From assembly GCA_017403955.1 (NCBI GenBank), contig JAFRDH010000024.1, positions 62,001 to 126,000 on the forward strand: a stretch of 64,000 bases of DNA. The letters run 5' to 3'. Shown in pieces: positions 3,994 through 14,861 of the stretch. A program made the position numbers and the translations under genes. How positions within the stretch are numbered: the first letter of the stretch is position 1; every line of letters begins with the position of its first letter. The notes below the pieces were generated by a model. It made no database searches, was not told the DNA's origin, and saw only the letters and a program-made list of their open reading frames with translations. The DNA comes from Mogibacterium sp. (GTDB lineage: Bacteria > Bacillota > Clostridia > Peptostreptococcales > Anaerovoracaceae).

Positions 3994-5258
3994 AATTCTT
4001 CAAGCAGCGGGTCATATTGCCCGTTAAGTTCTGACTGGCATTCGAGCAAAAACGCAGTACATTCTGAAGCAGAAAGCGAAATGGAATAATCTACTATCCC
4101 GCTGATATTGTCTTTACTGAACATACCGTTGTCATGCATGAACCTGAGAAGTTCGACATCTTTGTCCTCAACAGCCCGCCTGGCTATCCGGCGTGAATGT
4201 TTATCAAGGTAATCTATGTAACCTGCCCTGCAGGAATCGTCCAGTTCATAAGGGTGTCTGGAACGCATCACAGCAAGCCTGTCTTTGCCCCGCTGATTCC
4301 AGCCCATTCCCTCAAATAATACACTGTCGAGTACTGAATAATCAAACGAGTTATCAGTTCTGAATGCACCGGTAAGCGCCTCCCGCAAAGTTGAATTCAG
4401 GTCCGAGTACAGCGGCAGAAAGCCTACTGCATTGTCCGTCTGATCATCGAGAACTGTGACATCTATCGCACTTTCCCACAGGTAAAAATGATCTGCTTCA
4501 TCTATATAAGTTCTGTCGTCCCTGAAATAATTCCTGAATTCATGCAGGGATGACTTATATATGTTTATCTTCTTCTGCCTTTCTATCGGTCCGAAGCAGT
4601 CTTTGCCGATAGATCTGACGCTCTTCGGTACTGTTATTCCGTCGTGCACAAGGCTGAAGGCATCGTCTCCGATCTCCTCCAATGTATCCGGCAGACTGCT
4701 TATTTCGAGCATGCCGCATCTGTGAAAGGCTCTCGCGCCGATCTTGCGGACCGGTCCGAATCTGACGACCGATAGTGATACGCATCCGGCAAAAGCATCT
4801 TTTCCGATGATGCGGGCACTGCTGATGTCTGCATACTCAAGCGAAGTGCAGAAGCTCAGTATCGACGGCGGGATCTCACCCATCCAGTTCAGATCGACTC
4901 GCCTTATTGCAGTATGAGAGAATGCTCCCGCTCCGAGTTTTGTCACAGAACGAGGGATCGACGGAACATCGAGCATCCCGCAGAAAGAGAATGCCGCTTC
5001 GCCTATTTCCGTAACGTCACCGATAGTGATACTTCTGAGCGACTTGCAGAATTCGAAAGCTCTTGGCCCGATCACAACAGCGTTACTCATTGTGACTGAC
5101 TCAAGATTCGAACATTCACGAAATGCCCCTGCTCCGATGTATCTGACGTTGCTCAGGTCGGCATGTCTGAGTTCCTTGTTCTTCGCGAAGGCATCGTCTT
5201 TTATTTCTGTTATGTCTCCCGGCATCTCGAGATAGCCATTTATTATCAAGTCTCTCAT
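3990..5258 (-). CDS. BspA-like leucine-rich repeat protein (LRR_5), short paralogue
   Basis: About 422 residues. The first ~200 are consecutive ~23-residue LRR_5 repeats of the form IGxxAFxxCxxLxxIxI. A central region follows with the YKSSLHEFRNYFRDDRTYIDE type, and the C-terminal ~90 residues look ankyrin-like (ARRAVEDKDVELLRFMHDNGMF). There is no signal peptide, so it is presumably cytoplasmic, unlike secreted BspA proteins. The ATG at 5258 overlaps the TGA of the upstream LRR gene (TGATGA); a GTG one codon earlier is also possible. It is clearly paralogous to the C-terminal half of its larger neighbour, suggesting duplication inside the operon. Confidence 0.85.
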   Translation of the reverse strand: MRDLIINGYLEMPGDITEIKDDAFAKNKELRHADLSNVRYIGAGAFRECSNLESVTMSNAVVIGPRAFEFCKSLRSITIGDVTEIGEAAFSFCGMLDVPSIPRSVTKLGAGAFSHTAIRRVDLNWMGEIPPSILSFCTSLEYADISSARIIGKDAFAGCVSLSVVRFGPVRKIGARAFHRCGMLEISSLPDTLEEIGDDAFSLVHDGITVPKSVRSIGKDCFGPIERQKKINIYKSSLHEFRNYFRDDRTYIDEADHFYLWESAIDVTVLDDQTDNAVGFLPLYSDLNSTLREALTGAFRTDNSFDYSVLDSVLFEGMGWNQRGKDRLAVMRSRHPYELDDSCRAGYIDYLDKHSRRIARRAVEDKDVELLRFMHDNGMFSKDNISGIVDYSISLSASECTAFLLECQSELNGQYDPLLEEL

Positions 5259-8194
5259 CACAGTTCACCATCTACAGGATCACTCAGCACTCCGAGTTTC
5301 ATCCGGTACTCAAGCAGGTATGCTCTGCAGGCGATATCACCGGTGCCTGCACACTTGTCAATGATATCTGTTATATTCTTCTTATTGATAACGCCGTTTT
5401 CCACAAGAACCTTAATAGTATCTATATCCCCTTCCGCGGCAGCACTTGCGGATACAGACACCGCTTGTGATTTCAGATGATCTATATGTTTTTTTCTTGC
5501 ATCTCCGGTAAGACCATATGGATGTTTAAGTCTCTGAATAGCCAGCTTGTTGATCGCCCCGATCTCTTGCACCCATATAAAATCCCGTGATTTATCTTCA
5601 TCAAGAACTGAGTAGTCAAATGTATTATCCGGTCTGAAAGCCTCAATGAAATCCAGTTTCTTGTCTTCTCTTGTAGCATAGAACGGGATAAATCCTACGA
5701 TCTCGCCGGACTCGTCATCCAATATAGTGATCTCCACAAGAATTATTGACAAACCCCTGCCATCACCGAATTTTTTCCTTTTGGGTCTGGTAAAAATATT
5801 TCTGAACTCATACAGCAGTGATTTGTAAATAGTAACGCGCCTGATTGGCGTCTCCTGAAATGGCAGGCCCCGTTCATATCCGAAGCAATTCGTCCCTATT
5901 GTTCTGACACTTCGAGGAATAACCATTCCATCTCTGATACTGCTGAAAGCATTTTCTTCTATGACTTCCAGAGATTCAGGAAGGCTATCTATATCCAGTA
6001 AATCACACTGGTAGAATGCCTTCTTTCTGATCACACGCGCGTTACTGATATCCACATGTTTGAGGCGCTCTGAGACTGCAAACAATTCCTCCGGTATCTC
6101 CTCCATGTCGTGCAGATCGACACTCCGGACGCCGGCCCAGGCAAAGGCCCCTTTACCGATCGATTTCAGAGGATCCGGGAGAGCTTTGAAATCAAGGTTG
6201 CTGCAACTGTAAAATGCTCTTTCACCGATCTCCGACACATGATCCATCTTAACAAATCTCATTTCGGTACATCCTGAGAAGGCATTACCCCCGATGAATT
6301 CAACATTTTTCAGATCGATCCCTTTGATGTTTTTATTATCTTCGAATGCAGCAGCATCAATAACTGTCACATTATCCGGGATCTCCGGGTATTCCTCTGA
6401 CCCGTAGTACTTTTTCAGAACTGCTTGTCCGGGAAGGTCTTCTATGTTACATATGACAGCATCATATTCATTTTCAGGAGTTATGCGAATGACCATTGAA
6501 GAACGCACTGCCCCATCTTTCAACATAGCATCAAACTCTTCTGCGGAAACAGGGATCATATCAGGCGGATATTCCGGATCCTGATACATTGTATTGTTAT
6601 AGATCAGAAGAGCTTTGTAACGGATAAGCAGATCTCTGTCCGGCTTCATATAATATGTATTGCCGTTCAGCGCCGCTGTTGGGATTCTGACTCCGGCAAA
6701 ATCTATTTTCTTGCCTCCTGTATCTACCGCGTGTACTCCAAGTTGCTCTACCGAGAATGGCAGGACCAGCTTTTTCAGATGAAAATGGCTATTGAAGGCG
6801 TTACTTTCAAGACTTTTCAGCGACTCCGGAAAAGTCAGTTCTTCCAGCAAGTGTGCAGATTCCATTACGCCCTCGCCTATCTCAATAACAGAATCCGGTA
6901 TGACGAGCCGCCTGAGCCTCAGGTTTGCAAAGCAATGCGGTGCTATTGTTTCAAGTTTATCCGGCAAAGTCAGTTCCATAACCCTGTCAAACGGATCGAT
7001 ACAGGAACTGCCGAGACACCGCAAAGTATCCGGGAATTTGATGTGGTTGATATTATGCAGTGTGTTCCAGCTGAGATCTGTAGACATACTCTGCGCATAC
7101 ATACCTATGGATCCGACCCCTTCCGGTATGATCAGTGTATTATCAACTATGTTCAATTTGCCAAGCTGATACAACGTGTTGCCGATAACGATCTTAAAGC
7201 CGCGGAACTCCCTGATCCAGTCAAGACTATCTTCATAAACATCCTGCAATGCTTGAAGTGATTTGGGAAAGAGATATTCCGGCATATCCCCGCAATAGTT
7301 CCTCAGATAATCAAGCAATGCCGCAGGAAGCCACTCCGGAATGATGACAGAATTTGTAAATGTATGTCTGTTTTCCGGTATGAAAATAACGCTTCCGTAT
7401 GTTATATACCCGAATATCGCAATTGTTCTGTCATACCACTGCGTATAGAAGAAAGGAGCCCTGCTTAAAGAAAATCCTATAAAAGACACACTTGCGGATA
7501 TTCTGGCTTCTGTCAGCGAATTTGCCCAATAGAAGAAATCGCTTCTGAGTTCTTTGCACCCTTCTCCTACAGTGACAGTCTGTACAAAGCCATTATTGGA
7601 TCCGACATTCCTGCCTATCTTTAACGATCCCGGGATATCGATTCTTCTGGCGCGGCATTTATTGAATGCAGTCTTTTCATCATGTTGTGACCCGATACCT
7701 GTTACTTTGACTCCGTTTATTGACGACGGAACTATGATATGCTCCTTAGTGCCGTGATACTCTACGATCCAGAGCTCTGCTTCTTGGCAGGCATATTTAT
7801 AGTCATATCTCCATTCTACTTCCCAATCGTCTGCTTCAGCTCCACTTATATCTATTTCTTCCACTTCGTATACAGGAGCATCTGACCATGAATCTTTATA
7901 CTCATCGATCTTTATAACTCTGCGCCCGGGATCTGTGATCATGAAAAAATCATCAAGCGTGAGCACAGAAATAAGCTCACCTTTGTCGATAAGCGAGCGG
8001 ACAAAACGGACTTTGTCAGCGACTCCCTTTGCGTGAGGATCATAAACAAAGCATTCATAACTTCTGGCTGATCCCAGTTCAGCCTTTACAAGCCTTCCTC
8101 CATGCTTTTTAACGAGTCGCTTGACCTTATCCAGATTCTCCCGGTTCAGGCCCGCGGTGATCACATTCTGACCGCGAAATCGTTTGATACTCAT
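5258..8194 (-). CDS. Large BRCT-like / leucine-rich repeat protein
   Basis: 978 residues and first gene of the LRR-LRR-VWA-MoxR operon. Residues ~1-90 have a BRCT-like pattern: a VITAGL strand, then KVKRLVKKHGGRLVK, then a final helix near LTLDDFF. Two separate blocks of LRR_5 repeats follow (roughly 130-520 and 620-770). The C-terminal ~180 residues match the shorter paralogue, including an ankyrin-like tail. No signal peptide or membrane segment is visible. LRR and BRCT modules are protein-binding folds, so a sensor or adaptor role for the AAA+/VWA pair is plausible inference only. SD: AAGGAC before ATG. Confidence 0.82.
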   Translation of the reverse strand: MSIKRFRGQNVITAGLNRENLDKVKRLVKKHGGRLVKAELGSARSYECFVYDPHAKGVADKVRFVRSLIDKGELISVLTLDDFFMITDPGRRVIKIDEYKDSWSDAPVYEVEEIDISGAEADDWEVEWRYDYKYACQEAELWIVEYHGTKEHIIVPSSINGVKVTGIGSQHDEKTAFNKCRARRIDIPGSLKIGRNVGSNNGFVQTVTVGEGCKELRSDFFYWANSLTEARISASVSFIGFSLSRAPFFYTQWYDRTIAIFGYITYGSVIFIPENRHTFTNSVIIPEWLPAALLDYLRNYCGDMPEYLFPKSLQALQDVYEDSLDWIREFRGFKIVIGNTLYQLGKLNIVDNTLIIPEGVGSIGMYAQSMSTDLSWNTLHNINHIKFPDTLRCLGSSCIDPFDRVMELTLPDKLETIAPHCFANLRLRRLVIPDSVIEIGEGVMESAHLLEELTFPESLKSLESNAFNSHFHLKKLVLPFSVEQLGVHAVDTGGKKIDFAGVRIPTAALNGNTYYMKPDRDLLIRYKALLIYNNTMYQDPEYPPDMIPVSAEEFDAMLKDGAVRSSMVIRITPENEYDAVICNIEDLPGQAVLKKYYGSEEYPEIPDNVTVIDAAAFEDNKNIKGIDLKNVEFIGGNAFSGCTEMRFVKMDHVSEIGERAFYSCSNLDFKALPDPLKSIGKGAFAWAGVRSVDLHDMEEIPEELFAVSERLKHVDISNARVIRKKAFYQCDLLDIDSLPESLEVIEENAFSSIRDGMVIPRSVRTIGTNCFGYERGLPFQETPIRRVTIYKSLLYEFRNIFTRPKRKKFGDGRGLSIILVEITILDDESGEIVGFIPFYATREDKKLDFIEAFRPDNTFDYSVLDEDKSRDFIWVQEIGAINKLAIQRLKHPYGLTGDARKKHIDHLKSQAVSVSASAAAEGDIDTIKVLVENGVINKKNITDIIDKCAGTGDIACRAYLLEYRMKLGVLSDPVDGEL

Positions 8195-10278: not shown

Positions 10279-12195
10279 TTATTTCCCTCCGCCTATCCTA
10301 AATTGTTCTAATTTGCTCTTCAATGTGCTCTTTTCTGCAAACGGACCGGGTATTATTTCACCGGCTCTCTTATGTCCATAGTAGTCTGTGTCGAATAATA
10401 TAGTAGATCCGTCAGTTGATTCAAAACGCTGTTCAGGTTCGAAGGCTTTTCCGAGTATGTCTGAATCGATGATCCTGCATTCTCTCTGCACCTCATGTCT
10501 GGAAGACTTTGCACCGTCCATATACAAGTTGCCTTCCATCCAGACAGGGAGTTTGCCAAAATGAGCCTTTTCAAGTTCACCCATATCTGCCGGCCTTGTG
10601 AAATCGAACTGCGCTGACCATTCATCATATGACGGATACTCATCGAACATCCAAGTACCTGCGAGGCGGTTCTCATATTCCTTTCCGTCATCATAATCAT
10701 GCTGGATCTCGGCATCTTCTGTCGGCCATCTCTGCACGAATATGTTGTTATAGAACCGGTCGTCTCCATGCAGTATCGTCATGAAGCCCATCACTTCCGT
10801 GCGATGCGGAATATGATACGGAGTATATCTCCAGTCTGTTCCTGCTCCGACACATGTAAAAGCACCGCATATCAGGTTGTGAACAAGTGCGACTCCTTGT
10901 GTTGCAAATCTGAGGCTGACATCAGAAAGAAGGATATTATTGTCTATAATAGTCGGTCCGTGGCTGACTTCAACGAACAGATCCTGTGACATCATGCCGC
11001 CCTTGAGCTGCTTCGCCCCCTCAGGCCGCTGGTTGTCGTGGAGATAATTCGAGCTGATCCTTGTTCCCTGCGCTTCCCAGTCACACCAGATACCCATAGT
11101 GCAGTGATGGATATGATTCTTACGGATCATTACATCAATAGCTGCGTGAAGTTTGATCCCTGCGATCTCAGCTCCTCCAAGTTCCATCATATTGTTGATA
11201 TGGTGGATGTGGTTATCTTCAATCGTACTGAAGACGCTTCCCATACGTCCTATGATGCCGCCCTGCTGGCAGTCGTGTATGTCATTCCGGCGTATGATAT
11301 GGCTGCCGATGTTCTCTTTGAACCATCCGTGATATTGTCCGCGGCAGACAGAGTCTCTCTCCATCTGCGTCGGACTCTTGACATATTTTGTCGAAAAATA
11401 ATTATCATTATCAGGGTCGTAGTATCTGCCGAGAGAGATGCCGGCACATTTACTGTTGCTGATCTCGCAGTCCTCAATGATCCAGCCTTTGCTCCAGTGC
11501 GGTCCGATCATCCCGTCCTGAAAAGCAGCCGGCGGAGCCCAGGTCGTTGCTGCCTTTTCTATTCTGAACCCCCTGACCGTGATATAGTCTCTGCCGGTTT
11601 GCGCAGGGAAAAAGCATTCTCTCCTGACATTGATCTCGACTTTCTCCGTATTCGGATCCATTCCCCGGAAGTTCGCGTATATGACGGTTTCGCCGCGCTC
11701 AGAGTCTTGCTCTGTGAACCATTTGAATACGGATTTTGCCGGATCCCAGCTGACAGCACTGACATCCCCTTTCATGCAGGCTTCGAGGCTTTCCGCCTCA
11801 TACATCGCATCGCCATTCAGATACACACAGCCGGTATGCTTGTCAGCCTTGGCAAAGTACCAGTCGCCATATACAAGTGTAGTATATGGATTGTAACCGC
11901 CAAACACAGCATTATCGATCCGGATGACCCATGTGTCTCCTTCATAATGCTCCCAGTTATCTGCCGGTTCAGCTCCTGTTATCACTGCCCCCAGAGGTTC
12001 GGTGCTTATATACTCGATCCTTCTGTCTTCAGTCCCTGCGTTCAGAGGATCGACTTTCTCACGGTAGATCCCCGGCGCGACCCATACGGTATCTCCGGGC
12101 ATTGCAACTGCAGCCGCGTCATTGATATGTCTGAACGGCCTTGTGATATCCCCGTCACCGTCTATTCCTGAATTGATGTTTACATAAATATCCAT
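10279..12195 (-). CDS. GH120-like beta-xylosidase, right-handed beta-helix
   Basis: 638 residues, the same length I recall for the GH120 enzyme XylC of Thermoanaerobacterium. Long segments match that family: PFRHINDAAAVAMPGDTV near the start, IGPHWSKGWIIED (230-242), GSHIIRRNDIHDC (297-309), and AGIKLHAAID (345-354). The GH120 nucleophile and acid/base correspond to Asp372 in GIWCDWEAQGTR and Glu409 in FVEVSHGP, both present. It would release xylose from xylo-oligosaccharides. There is no signal peptide, so it acts on imported oligomers. No xylan transporter is visible nearby, which is unusual for such a gene. Confidence 0.85.
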   Translation of the reverse strand: MDIYVNINSGIDGDGDITRPFRHINDAAAVAMPGDTVWVAPGIYREKVDPLNAGTEDRRIEYISTEPLGAVITGAEPADNWEHYEGDTWVIRIDNAVFGGYNPYTTLVYGDWYFAKADKHTGCVYLNGDAMYEAESLEACMKGDVSAVSWDPAKSVFKWFTEQDSERGETVIYANFRGMDPNTEKVEINVRRECFFPAQTGRDYITVRGFRIEKAATTWAPPAAFQDGMIGPHWSKGWIIEDCEISNSKCAGISLGRYYDPDNDNYFSTKYVKSPTQMERDSVCRGQYHGWFKENIGSHIIRRNDIHDCQQGGIIGRMGSVFSTIEDNHIHHINNMMELGGAEIAGIKLHAAIDVMIRKNHIHHCTMGIWCDWEAQGTRISSNYLHDNQRPEGAKQLKGGMMSQDLFVEVSHGPTIIDNNILLSDVSLRFATQGVALVHNLICGAFTCVGAGTDWRYTPYHIPHRTEVMGFMTILHGDDRFYNNIFVQRWPTEDAEIQHDYDDGKEYENRLAGTWMFDEYPSYDEWSAQFDFTRPADMGELEKAHFGKLPVWMEGNLYMDGAKSSRHEVQRECRIIDSDILGKAFEPEQRFESTDGSTILFDTDYYGHKRAGEIIPGPFAEKSTLKSKLEQFRIGGGK

Positions 12196-12205
12196 CTTGC
12201 TTCGA

Positions 12206-13081
12206 TCAACCTTTTTTACATCTTCCGCAATCGCTGCAGCCGTTACAAATGAGTTTCATCGCACATTCCCTGCAATTATCGCAATAATGCTTCACATAGA
12301 GCCTGTCTTCAGGAACAGGCAGGCCCCAGCTGTCTACCAGTTCAAACTCCATTGGTTTTCCCTGATAGTTCATGCCTGACTTCAGCGCCTGGCTGGTTTG
12401 CAGACGCTTCCCGTTAAGGATGTATTTCTTCCCGTCTTTGAGGAAGACTGTCCCGGTCTCCATGAAGCAGAATGTTATGTCACGGGATTCGCACTCTTCC
12501 CTGAGCGATCTGATCCAGTCAAAATCGCACGGTCTTCTGCCCCCGTAGTTCTCGCCCCCGCATACGACCTGCTCTATCTGTCCGCTGTCCAGATAACTGC
12601 CTAGTTTCACTGGTCCGAGGATCGGCGCTACATAGATGCCTTTGTGTTTGAAAGGCAGTTCCAGCAAAACAGGGATCCGTTCATCGGCTCTCTTCTGGTT
12701 TTCGGTCGTGACATTAAGGAATATGTTTTCCCATCCATTCCCCCAATCCGGAGGAAGACACTCCGCTATACGCTGAGGTCTCTTGGTGACCAGTATGAAT
12801 ATCACATCACTTCTGATCCTCATGATATCCCATGCCTCGCCGCGCCACTGATCTGCTTCAGGCAGGAAGAAATCCGACGTCATGCAGACACTGATTTTCT
12901 CCCCGCTCTGTATTTTGTACCTGCCTCTCCGGTCCTTGGCAAGCGGATATCTGGCGTTTGCAGTAAGATAAATCTCAGCGCCGTTCTTATCCCTCATATC
13001 GTCGAGGAAGTACATATAGCAATTCTCACAGCCCTCGCTGCACTTGACACAACCGTGCCATGGATTCCAAATATCATGCAT
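12206..13081 (-). CDS. Gp37/Gp68 family protein (DUF5131), radical-SAM-like
   Basis: About 291 residues when started at MHDIWNPW, the usual family N-terminus. The Cys motif C14-SEG-C18-EN-C21 has CxxxCxxC spacing and follows NPWHGC. Later motifs are VCMTSDFF, ILVTKRPQRI and VVCGGENYGGRRPCDFDW, and a C-terminal Cys cluster (CDNCRECAMKLICNGCSDCGRCKKG region) could hold another Fe-S site. Function is unproven; family members occur in phages and chromosomes. The frame stays open upstream to 13456 and includes a hydrophobic segment at about 13130-13200 with AGGAGG near 13230 but no standard start codon, so I prefer 13081. Confidence 0.78.
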   Translation of the reverse strand: MHDIWNPWHGCVKCSEGCENCYMYFLDDMRDKNGAEIYLTANARYPLAKDRRGRYKIQSGEKISVCMTSDFFLPEADQWRGEAWDIMRIRSDVIFILVTKRPQRIAECLPPDWGNGWENIFLNVTTENQKRADERIPVLLELPFKHKGIYVAPILGPVKLGSYLDSGQIEQVVCGGENYGGRRPCDFDWIRSLREECESRDITFCFMETGTVFLKDGKKYILNGKRLQTSQALKSGMNYQGKPMEFELVDSWGLPVPEDRLYVKHYCDNCRECAMKLICNGCSDCGRCKKG

Positions 13082-13504
13082 ATCAGTTCTTATCTTGTCT
13101 TTACAGAGCGGATCCGTGACCATGCCGAACAGGTCCTGTCCGGTCTCGAATTTCAGCTTGTATGGCATCATTGTTACGATCAGTGCCAGAATCAGGATCA
13201 CAGCCAGTCTTCTTAAAATCTTTCTTACAATTACCTCCTGCCGGAAATAATAACTGTATGAACAGAATTGTTGTATATATGATAACACAATGGCTGCCCC
13301 GAGAGCATCACTGTTCGATCCCGGTAAGCGCCTATGTGCTATCCTTTTCCAACCCCCTTTGAGAAATCTTGTGAAGACTGAAGTTCGGGCTGAATGTCCT
13401 AAATGGGATCTTCGACCATTTCTCAACATTCTGATACAAAATGTCCGAAGTCCCAAAGGCTCAAATGGAGCTTTCTCTGGAAGCTTCAGGCAGAATCTGT
13501 TTTT
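13082..13504. other. Stretch without a confident gene
   Basis: The reading frame of the Gp37-like gene continues upstream here and encodes a membrane-like stretch (LAVILILALIVTM) preceded by an AGGAGG site near 13230. A start there would need a rare ATT codon. Beyond this I see only shadow frames. The part from about 13380 shows faint similarity to DNA near 59460 and leads into the dispersed repeat. Confidence 0.4.
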
Positions 13505-13651
13505 ACGTATCAGGATGGCCGAATGATGTTATTGATCAAAGACTATTGCATCAGGGTACTTCGTCTGTTAAGACATCAAATCCGTGATTCTGTATGAAAT
13601 CTCTAATATCCCATGGTGTTCACATCCACAGACTTCGTCTATGATGACCCT
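13505..13651. repeat. Diverged dispersed repeat, copy 1
   Basis: Hand alignment with 59550-59697 gives about 77% identity over ~146 bp with one gap, in the same orientation. The best-conserved block starts TATCAGGATGGCC. Both copies lie in gene-free DNA. Translations in all frames are broken by stops in both copies, so neither encodes an intact protein now. The origin could be a decayed mobile element or a non-coding element. Confidence 0.65.
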
Positions 13652-13798
13652 GAAAAAGCGAAATTGGATGAAATAAGCGGACGAATGCAGGAGTTGTACC
13701 CCACTGATGCTCTCAGGAGCTGAAGCTCCCGGCGTCTGTTGACGGCGTCGCTCGCTCCAATCAAGCGAGCTTGTTGGAGCTTTGCTCCTGGTTGAATC

Positions 13799-13848
13799 AC
13801 AAAAAGAGCGCCTTGCTGCAGAGGATCAATTCTACGGCAACAGGCGCT
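13799..13848 (-). terminator. Terminator of the tRNA array
   Basis: On the minus strand, AGCGCCT...AGGCGCT arms, extended by TTGC/GCAA with mismatches, are followed by CTTTTT. It lies 28 bp beyond the last tRNA. Confidence 0.65.
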
Positions 13849-13875
13849 TTATTATCTGCTTCCGCAGACTTCTCT

Positions 13876-13953
13876 TGGTGCGCACTCGTGGATTCGAACC
13901 ACGGCATTCCCGCGTATCAGACGGGTACTCTGAACCAGCTGAGTTAAATGCGC
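13876..13953 (-). tRNA. tRNA-Ile (GAT)
   Basis: Full cloverleaf with encoded CCA. Acceptor GCGCATT pairs with AGTGCGC, discriminator A. The D-stem is ACTC/GAGT. The anticodon stem is CCCGT/GCGGG with loop CTGATAC, so the anticodon is GAT. The T-stem is CGTGG/CCACG with loop TTCGAAT. This is the most canonical member of the array and the last one transcribed. Confidence 0.9.
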
Positions 13954-13991
13954 ATGACACCCTGAAACAGACTTGGACTATCAGGGTAAAT

Positions 13992-14067
13992 TGGCGGTAA
14001 CGGCTGGATTCGAACCAGCGACCTCCCGGGCTTCAACCGGGCGCTCTACCAACTGGGCTACATTACC
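13992..14067 (-). tRNA. tRNA-Phe (GAA), slightly atypical
   Basis: Acceptor GGTAATG pairs with CGTTACC, with an encoded CCA. The anticodon stem CCCGG/CCGGG carries loop TTGAAGC, giving GAA. T-arm is GCTGG/CCAGC with TTCGAAT. Unusual for tRNA-Phe: discriminator is G rather than A, position 37 is G rather than A, and the D-stem GCCC/GAGC has a C-A mismatch. Confidence 0.82.
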
Positions 14068-14078
14068 ATATTGTTGTC

Positions 14079-14153
14079 TGGCAGCCCCTGCAAGACTTGA
14101 ACTCGCACCTCCGGAATCAGAATCCGGCATCCTTCCAATTAGACGAAAGGGCT
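14079..14153 (-). tRNA. tRNA-Gln (CTG)
   Basis: Acceptor AGCCCTT pairs with AGGGGCT, discriminator G, CCA encoded. The D-arm is the GTCT/GGAT type used by Glu/Gln/Lys-like tRNAs. The anticodon stem CCGGA/TCCGG holds loop TTCTGAT, so the anticodon is CTG. T-stem GCGAG/CTTGC has one G-T pair. Confidence 0.86.
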
Positions 14154-14156
14154 ATA

Positions 14157-14232
14157 TGGCGGTCTCTGCTGGACTCGAACCTGCAACCATCGCCTTAACT
14201 GGGCGCCACTCTCCCTATTGAGCTAAGAGACC
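14157..14232 (-). tRNA. tRNA-Asn-like (GTT) with A at position 33
   Basis: The acceptor GGTCTCT/AGAGACC is perfect, with discriminator G and CCA. The anticodon arm GCGCC-CAGTTAA-GGCGA puts GTT at 34-36, but position 33, normally U in nearly all tRNAs, is A. The stem ends in a G-A mismatch. The T-stem GCAGG/CCAGC contains an A-A mismatch. It is either a decaying gene or a deliberately non-canonical tRNA; amino acid assignment is therefore tentative. Confidence 0.7.
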
Positions 14233-14261
14233 GTTTCTATACCGTGGATTGTAAATAAATT

Positions 14262-14337
14262 TGGTGATCCCCGTGGGATTTGAACCCACATCTCCCGGAT
14301 TAAGAGTCCGGTGTCCTTCCTTTTAGACGAGAGAACC
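14262..14337 (-). tRNA. tRNA-Lys (CTT)
   Basis: Acceptor GGTTCTC pairs with GGGGATC through several G-T pairs, discriminator A, CCA encoded. The anticodon stem CCGGA/TCCGG with loop CTCTTAA gives CTT. T-stem GTGGG/CCCAC with TTCAAAT is good. Four bases separate it from the next tRNA upstream, so the array must be processed from one transcript. Confidence 0.84.
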
Positions 14338-14341
14338 ATGG

Positions 14342-14416
14342 TGGTATCCCTTAGAAGAATCAAACTTCTATCCTTCGCTTCGTAGGCGAGCGTTCTTTTC
14401 GTTGAACTAAAGGGAT
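14342..14416 (-). tRNA. tRNA-Arg (ACG), non-canonical D- and T-loops
   Basis: Acceptor ATCCCTT/AAGGGAT is perfect. The D-stem GTTC/GAAC is perfect, but the D-loop AACGAAAA lacks the G18-G19 pair. The anticodon stem CTCGC/GCGAA has a terminal C-A mismatch, and the loop CTACGAA gives ACG. The T-loop is TTTGATT instead of TTCRANY. Downstream the sequence reads ACCACCA, a tandem CCA before the next tRNA. Confidence 0.75.
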
Positions 14417-14420
14417 ATAT

Positions 14421-14499
14421 TGGTGCTCCAAACAGGATTCGAACCTGCACTGAACGGAATCTCATTCCGCCTCCTCTACCGGTATTGGGATACTGGAGC
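14421..14499 (-). tRNA. tRNA with Leu anticodon (GAG) but short variable loop
   Basis: Acceptor GCTCCAG/TTGGAGC, discriminator A, CCA encoded. Anticodon stem GCGGA/TCCGT with loop ATGAGAT gives GAG. T-arm GCAGG/CCTGT with TTCGAAT. Leucine tRNAs normally carry a long variable arm; here only about 5 bases separate the anticodon and T arms, so charging by LeuRS is doubtful. It is the first tRNA of the array. Confidence 0.72.
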
Positions 14500-14516
14500 A
14501 TATATGTTTTCCTATT

Positions 14517-14553
14517 AAAAAAACCGCTTATCCCGGTTCTGAGACAAGCGGTT
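14517..14553 (-). terminator. Rho-independent terminator of the 41-residue peptide unit
   Basis: On the minus strand AACCGCTT and AAGCGGTT form a perfect 8-bp stem closed by a 16-nt loop and followed by T7. It ends the small peptide unit and stands just before the tRNA array, so the tRNAs need read-through or a promoter I could not find. Confidence 0.8.
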
Positions 14554-14580
14554 GTGGAATCTGTATATTATGTCCGGCAT

Positions 14581-14706
14581 CTAACTCAAATGCCGCACAC
14601 TCACATTGCTTGTCTCACTTTTGCACACAAAGATCTTCTTCAGTTCGATTCCCTGAAGCTTGTTTGCCATATCGATTTCCTTAATTGAAAATTCGAAAAA
14701 CAACAT
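14581..14706 (-). CDS. 41-residue peptide of unknown function
   Basis: An open frame MLFFEFSIKEIDMANKLQGI... ending VSVRHLS, 41 codons plus TAG. An AAAAGGAG site lies about 10 bases before the ATG; an internal ATG (MANKLQ) has its own AAGGAA site. It is enclosed by a strong promoter (14809-14838) and a strong terminator (14517-14553), which argues that it is a real transcription unit. There is one Cys and no signal peptide. A regulatory RNA with an incidental frame is the main alternative. I recognise no homologue. Confidence 0.5.
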   Translation of the reverse strand: MLFFEFSIKEIDMANKLQGIELKKIFVCKSETSNVSVRHLS

Positions 14707-14808
14707 TCGTCTTGTGCTCCTTTTCCTTGAAAGATTTATTATTGCTATAAGTATTCTACCTGTATTCCGGAACCGGTCCGGGGAGAGGTGGTATTTTTCT
14801 CTGTAAAG

Positions 14809-14838
14809 AATATATCATGCCGGCAGGATGACTGTAAA
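14809..14838 (-). promoter_or_regulatory. Promoter of the 41-residue peptide unit
   Basis: TTTACA (14833-14838) and TATATT (14809-14814) with an 18-bp spacer. The predicted transcript has a leader of about 100 bases before the ATG, rich in G runs (GGGGAGAGG on the plus strand), which may be structured. Confidence 0.55.
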
Positions 14839-14856
14839 TTCAACTCGTAGTTGAAT
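14838..14856. promoter_or_regulatory. Palindromic operator candidate ATTCAACT-N3-AGTTGAAT
   Basis: A perfect 8-3-8 inverted repeat abutting the -35 box of the peptide unit and directly following the SPL radical SAM gene. Without a T-run it is a poor terminator, so a protein-binding site is favoured. Confidence 0.5.
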
Positions 14857-14861
14857 AACGG

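Follow-up and report, generated by a model that had tools for sequence, protein, structure and literature searches.

Introduction

Several described systems resemble the locus reported here, and they are given as the available parts of their sources present them. In Anabaena PCC 7120, the trn operon and rtcB are co-repressed by TrcR and are freed by translation stress (PMC10272220). Dense and redundant tRNA clusters, the tRNA array units, occur on chromosomes, plasmids and phages (Morgado and Vicente, PMC5966550; Tran et al. therein); RtcB has no occurrence in the main text of PMC5966550. In the Salmonella rsr-yrlBA-rtcBA operon, rtcBA responds to damaged tRNAs (PMC7790460), and in E. coli toiL is a multipurpose upstream ORF that senses translation stress through stalling (PMC12121999). 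ROOL RNA occurs near phage tRNA islands (PMC12286853, where RtcB likewise does not occur). A search of the open-licence literature, with subscription papers outside its scope, turned up no report in which tRNA arrays, RtcB and a leader attenuator come together.

The locus examined here lies in a Mogibacterium sp. genome, within a stretch of 64,000 nucleotides referred to below as the window. Like the Anabaena system, as far as the available parts of that report describe it, it appears to combine a large redundant tRNA operon and rtcB under joint control with release by translation stress, the control being read here from the genes alone. In Anabaena the control is exerted in trans by a ribbon-helix-helix repressor, on an operon carried by a megaplasmid and on an rtcB in the chromosome, whereas here a common cis leader, made up of ORF, antiterminator and terminator, stands before each unit, and RtcB adjoins the array in eight relatives. 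The density and redundancy described for tRNA array units are also seen in the arrays of the genus, which differ in the small copy found in the window, the class I Leu tRNAs and the common attenuator. The Salmonella operon also sets RtcB alongside a Ro protein, the candidate here being only possibly Ro-like; it is controlled by the activator RtcR, and no tRNA array is mentioned in the available parts of its description. With toiL, similarly as described in part, the locus shares a short ORF, ribosome stalling and an altered downstream RNA structure, all predicted here from sequence, but toiL works through a ribosome-binding site and Rho, whereas here an intrinsic terminator would be the gate and the tRNA genes one output. 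ROOL RNAs lie inside arrays of the genus, much as the excerpted account places them near phage islands, and occur twice in the genome under study, yet none adjoins the seven-gene array. Arrays and attenuators are known kinds of element; neither Rfam nor the open-licence literature yielded a common switch that ties both to RNA repair. The reading favored here, with a probability of roughly 0.6, makes the array a member of a translation-stress regulon in which a leader-peptide attenuator would switch spare tRNAs and RNA repair on jointly.

Results

Composition of the tRNA array

Seven tRNA genes were called on the minus strand between positions 13876 and 14499, in agreement between ARAGORN and Rfam RF00005 (45-67 bits, cut-off 29). 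They are separated by 3-38 nt and all seven encode CCA, which bore out the preliminary description of seven close-packed, CCA-encoding genes. The features of the region, in the direction of transcription, are as follows.

14809..14838, minus strand: promoter-like site TTTACA-18-TATATT with TG ahead of the second hexamer (consensus scan; no proof of function)
14581..14706, minus strand: leader ORF of 41 codons plus TAG, MLFFEFSIKEIDMANKLQGIELKKIFVCKSETSNVSVRHLS, starting with ATG and with AAGGAG upstream
14517..14676, minus strand: attenuator RNA (covariance model R1), 142 bits, the window leader being among the 22 training leaders
14609..14617, minus strand: TGAGACAAG, predicted antiterminator 5′ strand within the leader ORF, complementary to the terminator 5′ arm
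14522..14553, minus strand: intrinsic terminator with a 13-bp stem and T-run, immediately 5′ of tRNA-Leu (terminator scan, alignment)
14421..14499, minus strand: tRNA-Leu(GAG), class I, short variable loop
14342..14416, minus strand: tRNA-Arg(ACG), A19-U56 replacing G19-C56, body closest to array Arg(TCT)
14262..14337, minus strand: tRNA-Lys(CTT) (ARAGORN and Rfam)
14157..14232, minus strand: tRNA-Asn(GTT), A33 and an additional T-stem mismatch
14079..14153, minus strand: tRNA-Gln(CTG) (ARAGORN and Rfam)
13992..14067, minus strand: tRNA-Phe(GAA), G73 and a single D-stem mismatch
13876..13953, minus strand: tRNA-Ile(GAT), the sole Ile-GAT gene detected in the assembly
13800..13850, minus strand: terminator-like hairpin 3′ of the array, GCGCCT..AGGCGC with T-run and long loop, found by eye and absent from the terminator scan output

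The consensus scan returned five promoter-like sites in the region, against 2.4 expected.

The genome (2.2 Mb in 25 contigs, 95% complete) gave 46 tRNA matches, among which the anticodons of six of the seven array genes (Phe, Gln, Asn, Lys, Arg and Leu) were found again elsewhere. A genome-wide tRNA search detected no second Ile-GAT gene. Ile-GAT genes usually reside in rRNA operons, and since the assembly yielded no 16S rRNA, an rRNA-linked copy is probably merely missing. The suggestion that the array is supernumerary was thus supported for six anticodons and not for Ile-GAT, and, Ile-GAT aside, the array genes are not the only normally scoring copies in the genome, the finding that would have told against it. 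The array shows the high density and the redundancy with housekeeping tRNAs that characterize a tRNA array unit; its seven genes fall short of the usual number, about 20 or more, which is reached in relatives (up to 28).

Structure of the leader

The small peptide unit mentioned in the preliminary description is the 41-codon leader ORF; the conserved attenuator around it, shared with RNA-repair genes, had gone unnoticed. A tblastn search of the fetched loci with the last 29 residues of the ORF located homologues that precede RtcB, DUF2828 and array segments. The ATG leader ORF was intact in all 24 leaders inspected, and an AGGA-like ribosome site was recognized by eye in each of them except L280. 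In an alignment of 22 leaders, from which L092 and L090 were excluded for an atypical terminator and an insertion, TGAGACAAG in the ORF pairs with CTTGTCTCA in the terminator in 193 of 198 cells, compared with 109 of 188 at the best register of a slid-register control. The antiterminator pairing covaries (GAGATAAG/CTTATCTC) in two leaders, and the terminator stem also covaries among leaders. A short ORF with a ribosome site is present, its translation being predicted, and complementarity and covariation support an intrinsic terminator with a mutually exclusive antiterminator that overlaps the ORF; judged by these features, the element has the layout of a transcription attenuator with a translated leader.

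No Rfam family matched the leader at gathering cut-offs in the window scan. A search of 14480-14860 at E up to 1 returned two hits of 15-16 bits, against cut-offs of 50 and 58, and the leader fits no family model of a T-box or other known Rfam cis-regulator. Folding with RNAalifold predicted a further helix, GUGUGC/GCAUA, that encloses TGAGACAAG and could act as a competitor of the antiterminator. No stall site masking a competing strand was evident in the leader.

Co-distribution of leader, arrays and RtcB in the genus

R1 matched at E up to 1e-5 in 17 of 47 genus genomes, 15 of them strongly, namely the 14 genomes with an array and G025. R1 was built on leaders of 14 of these genomes, and high scores in those 14 arise by construction; G001 and the 30 genomes without a match are free of this effect. 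Strong leaders were present in 14/14 array genomes and 1/33 others (Fisher; the genomes are related and the values overstate independence). RtcB of any kind was found in 15 of the 47 genomes, 13/14 with an array and 2/33 without (Fisher; related genomes), and close RtcB (72% identity or more) in 12/14 and 2/33, respectively. The two array-less genomes with RtcB are G025 and G028, the latter having close RtcB yet no leader match; the array genome G026 carries a distant RtcB alone (47% identity), and the RtcB gene of G009 contains an in-frame TAG.

The first unit within 900 nt of the 37 strong leaders was RtcB in 13 cases, tRNAs in 21, and in the other three a phosphoesterase, PF04308 or DUF2828. 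With one switch upstream of arrays and repair genes, spare tRNAs and RNA-repair enzymes would be induced together. A small HTH_3 gene often lies between a strong leader and the tRNAs, and HTH_3 occurs in many units; its products could be true regulators, or could supply an added repressor. The anatomy, conservation, complementarity and co-distribution of the leader are established at the level of sequence.

Occurrence of the leader outside the genus

The outside sample comprised the 80 RtcB loci from named genomes that stood closest among the matches listed, 79 of which were placed by motif. A tRNA lay within 1 kb of RtcB in 25 of these loci; without L105-L107 the count is 22 of 76, and in those no tRNA lay 4-10 kb from RtcB on either side. 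Among the carriers in culture, [Clostridium] aminophilum KH1P1 (L137) has five tRNAs behind RtcB, and Eubacterium ruminantium FB3002 (L165) has RtcB with a weak leader match and no detected tRNA. R1 gave 62 matches at E up to 0.1 on these closest listed loci. Outside L105-L110, 43 of 50 matches fell on the coding strand at most 350 nt before RtcB or its tRNAs, a target zone of about 1% of the searched sequence, with low scores of 21-53 bits. In 36 of the 40 examined among these 43 loci a leader ORF reached 37 codons or more, four of these ORFs starting with GTG or TTG; the same length was reached in 126 of 2000 block shuffles and in 0 of 40 reverse complements. The terminator finder, which overlooked the L108 terminator that R1 detects, reported a terminator in 41 of the 76 loci L108-L184, with CCGCTT in the 5′ arm of 29. 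The antiterminator changes along with the terminator in L141, L148 and L165, and only 12 of the 41 terminators outside L105-L110 reach a P of 0.05 in the complement test.

Adjacency of tRNAs to RtcB as a general RtcB trait was rejected, since in an even class sample ARAGORN found same-strand tRNAs within 1 kb in one of 40 loci (L284). Rfam, applied to 14 of the 40 regions, added one partial tRNA that ARAGORN had missed, roughly 290 nt ahead of RtcB in L283, and ARAGORN may therefore undercount elsewhere too. R1 gave two marginal matches in the 40 class-sample loci, neither of them before RtcB.

Related arrays and the insertion site

Strong matches to the array DNA (several hits, best E below 1e-10) were found in 14 of the 47 genus genomes, including the genome under study, and seven others had one or two weak matches. 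The relatives' loci hold packed tRNAs covering 19-20 amino acids in six of them, and all 20 in L084 and L085. By homology, the window array is a shortened relative of the larger arrays in 13 other genus genomes. Six of its seven tRNAs share 0.90-0.97 identity with relatives' array tRNAs of the same isoacceptor, Lys(CTT) being equally close to Lys-TTT in those arrays. The exception, Arg(ACG), has its best match (0.76) to array Arg(TCT), which suggests an anticodon switch. Derivation of the array as a recent copy of the genome's own housekeeping tRNAs was rejected, the best matches there being 0.67-0.73 compared with 0.90-0.97 in the relatives' arrays; window Leu stands outside the general range, at 0.84 to the odd Leu of L048. 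Six of the seven window genes stand in the same order as in L081, and those present in L084 likewise follow the order found there; no collinearity was seen with L082, L086, L087 or L089.

For the insertion site, the surroundings of the radical SAM gene were compared in 19 short loci from relatives. In the array-less genome G002 (L332), radical SAM, DUF5714 and CorA stand in the window order with 34 nt between the flanks, whereas in the window a block of about 4.6 kb (10279-14860; array, DUF5131 and GH120) separates radical SAM from DUF5714. This comparison indicates that the block with the array was probably a gain. CorA lies directly beside radical SAM in L330 and L331, and the rest of the 19 loci have none of the tested neighbors, save L326, with two farther off. 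Window positions 13700-13800, 3′ of the array, are rich in inverted repeats and are the decayed repeat of the preliminary description. A large BspA-type leucine-rich repeat protein gene lies close to the array, at window positions 5258-8194. DUF5131, the array neighbor, is presumably a name once given for phage proteins.

ROOL RNA was found in seven of the 47 genus genomes, and its role as a constant partner of the arrays was rejected, as only six of the 14 array genomes carry it. It lies within big arrays at L086:8272-8846 and L089:9198-9772, with RtcB units on the same contigs. In the genome under study ROOL RNA occurs as a tandem pair (306 and 347 bits) at G000:C13:11840-13060 (L276), and ARAGORN found no tRNA in the surrounding 19.9 kb.

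The arrays might be phage- or plasmid-type supplementary tRNAs, RtcB included, that serve a mobile element by codon supply or by escape from a host tRNA-cutting defense. This is quite conceivable, at somewhat less than even odds, and it is compatible with the stress-regulon reading. The kinship to mobile-type arrays proposed earlier gained support from the patchy presence of homologous arrays, the integrase gene that lies some 2 kb away from a relative's array, the array-less L332 junction and the short-armed Leu tRNAs of 76-79 nt in phage tRNA islands, and the ROOL RNAs inside arrays have the phage-island counterparts noted in the Introduction. Service to a mobile element is opposed by the ten window neighbor proteins scanned, none of which matched a Pfam phage or mobile-element family, and by the viruses, since R1 matched none of 80 viral RtcB loci and its exact consensus pattern is absent from the viral collection.

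Leader-associated units in the genome under study

The genome carries five R1 copies, three strong and two weak. The strong copies precede the array (142 bits), a Leu(CAG)-PF04308 unit (133 bits) and a DUF2828-RtcB unit (132 bits). The tRNA of the second unit (G000:C12:261123-261196, L104) is a second class I Leu tRNA with its own leader, and overlaps the predicted start of the PF04308 gene. The genome's rtcB lies on contig C12, away from the window array and not adjacent to it as in an RtcB RNA-repair operon. A second RtcB stands immediately upstream of the DUF2828-RtcB unit, and RlaP (PF10127) farther downstream on the same strand. The invariant columns of RtcB include DIGCG, GGGNHF and PHGAGR, which we take to be its catalytic motifs. 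The DUF2828/DUF7788 protein is possibly Ro-like; a below-cut-off TROVE match lies in the protein of an adjoining gene and not in that protein itself. A relative of solved structure was sought for the DUF2828/DUF7788 protein in a single-sequence search, and none was found at E up to 0.1.

Both weak copies (43 and 30 bits), at G000:C5:53128-53282 (L375) and G000:C7:20400-20546 (L376), stand ahead of methyltransferase genes, behind one of which follows an acetyltransferase gene, and similar weak leader matches occur in G023 and G044. These units would fit a leader that senses ribosome-targeting antibiotics generally and not tRNA loss, the array being one output of antibiotic tolerance. An upstream ORF responding to several antibiotic classes has been published (PMC12121999, as far as its available parts describe it). 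Among the 37 strong leaders, however, 36 precede tRNA, RtcB, PF04308 or DUF2828, and the remaining one precedes the phosphoesterase at an array; general antibiotic sensing is held here as a tentative alternative, with the odds against it.

Conserved and window-specific tRNA features

At least four of the tRNAs had been said to break general rules, which proved about right in number and uneven in kind. Of eight near-universal tRNA features tested, at least one fails in two of the seven window tRNAs, Asn with its A33 and Arg, in which both G19 and C56 are missing, compared with 0 of 38 housekeeping tRNAs of the same genome, a count that excludes the odd Leu(CAG) of L048. Leu and Phe are odd otherwise, Leu being without a long variable arm and Phe having discriminator G73.

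Some of these features are shared with relatives. A short variable loop is common to all 33 Leu tRNAs called across the 19 array loci; three of the 33 are tRNA-like genes that end without CCA. At the array ends, tRNA-like genes lacking CCA (L089:11336-11410, L086:7019-7094 and L082:7458-7532) directly precede DUF2828/DUF7788 genes or homologues and could be Y-RNA-like. Array Arg(ACG) carries G18-C19 and G56 in each of 13 arrays, a swapped G19-C56 elbow pair, where window Arg has A19-U56. In viral contigs A19-U56 occurs in five tRNAs, and in L238, L248, L253 and L203 viral tRNAs of several isotypes show either A19-U56 or C19-G56 instead of G19-C56.

The proposal that the 19-56 swap is always compensated was rejected. 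With D-loops read by eye, a Watson-Crick 19-56 pair was retained in 16 of 20 window and genus-array tRNAs with non-C56, 13 of the 16 being one Arg family; the four that fail to pair are L086 Pro and Gly, L096 Pro and L098 Leu. Three Pro tRNAs have C19 together with C56, and in the remaining loci with an altered position 56 the pair is retained in six of eight. The double changes indicate folded array tRNA kept by selection, though four other non-C56 tRNAs fail to pair.

Other features are confined to the window. U33 is present in 13 of 13 array relatives of Asn, and position 73 of the Phe relatives is A in eight and T in one; Asn A33 and Phe G73, along with a single stem mismatch in each of the two tRNAs (T-stem and D-stem, respectively), were found only in the window among the copies compared. 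These changes suggest that part of the window copy is decaying. By extension, the whole array might be the decaying remnant of a mobile array, functionless now, with a leader merely not lost yet. Only seven of about 28 genes are left, and the genome's own repair genes sit on other contigs of the draft. This extension is nevertheless unlikely, given that the leader ORF, antiterminator and terminator are all intact, that the Arg elbow pair was retained through a double change, and that Ile, Gln, Lys and Leu show no mismatch over the 20 stem pairs counted in each. That array tRNAs are decoys absorbing tRNA nucleases instead of translation adaptors is very improbable, for although U33 is retained in 270 of 297 anticodon loops while some bodies are unusual, CCA is encoded in 292 of the 297 and, as noted, 19-20 amino acids are covered in six loci.

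Discussion

The translation-stress regulon favored above would work as follows. Transcription would begin upstream and pass through the 41-codon leader ORF and then the intrinsic terminator. Normal translation of the leader would let the terminator fold and keep the array tRNAs off. When a ribosome stalls in the leader, for want of a usable tRNA or under ribosome-targeting drugs, TGAGACAAG would pair with the 5′ arm of the terminator, the terminator would be blocked and RNA polymerase would enter the array. The same switch, standing before the RtcB RNA ligase, the DUF2828/DUF7788 protein, the PF04308 protein and the array, would serve to replace and to repair. Ribosome stalling is the likely signal; we infer the direction of the switch, the expression and charging of the array and the benefit to the cell.

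A broader version of this regulon would make the leader a sensor of pan-tRNA integrity. Because its peptide contains nearly every amino acid, loss of almost any tRNA would stall the ribosome and free the spare set, the RNA ligase and their partners; the altered 19-56 elbow and the missing variable arm of Leu would let the spares evade the cutter, and ROOL cages would belong to the kit. Taken whole, this version is doubtful. The number of distinct amino acids per leader peptide averaged 18.4 in 21 peptides, three near-identical leaders having been dropped, compared with about 16 in protein stretches of equal length. Three of the 21 contain all 20 amino acids, and most are without Trp. A column shuffle gave a P of 0.0006 over 20 leader peptides, which are related and whose kinship is uncorrected in this value. 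The window leader peptide has 17 distinct amino acids (P 0.37), and outside the genus the mean was 17.5 compared with 16.3 (15 of 36 leader ORFs). These counts lend weak support to pan-amino-acid sensing as a possible property of the leader.

At issue are the reason bacteria keep redundant arrays of odd tRNAs and the function of the ROOL RNA that lies in some of them. A common attenuator tying arrays to RtcB and other RNA-linked proteins makes the role of the array cheaply testable, and model R1 provides a sequence tag by which further members of the regulon could be located among gut Clostridia. If the regulon reading is true, the array and the repair genes would be a backup kit for damaged translation or tRNAs.
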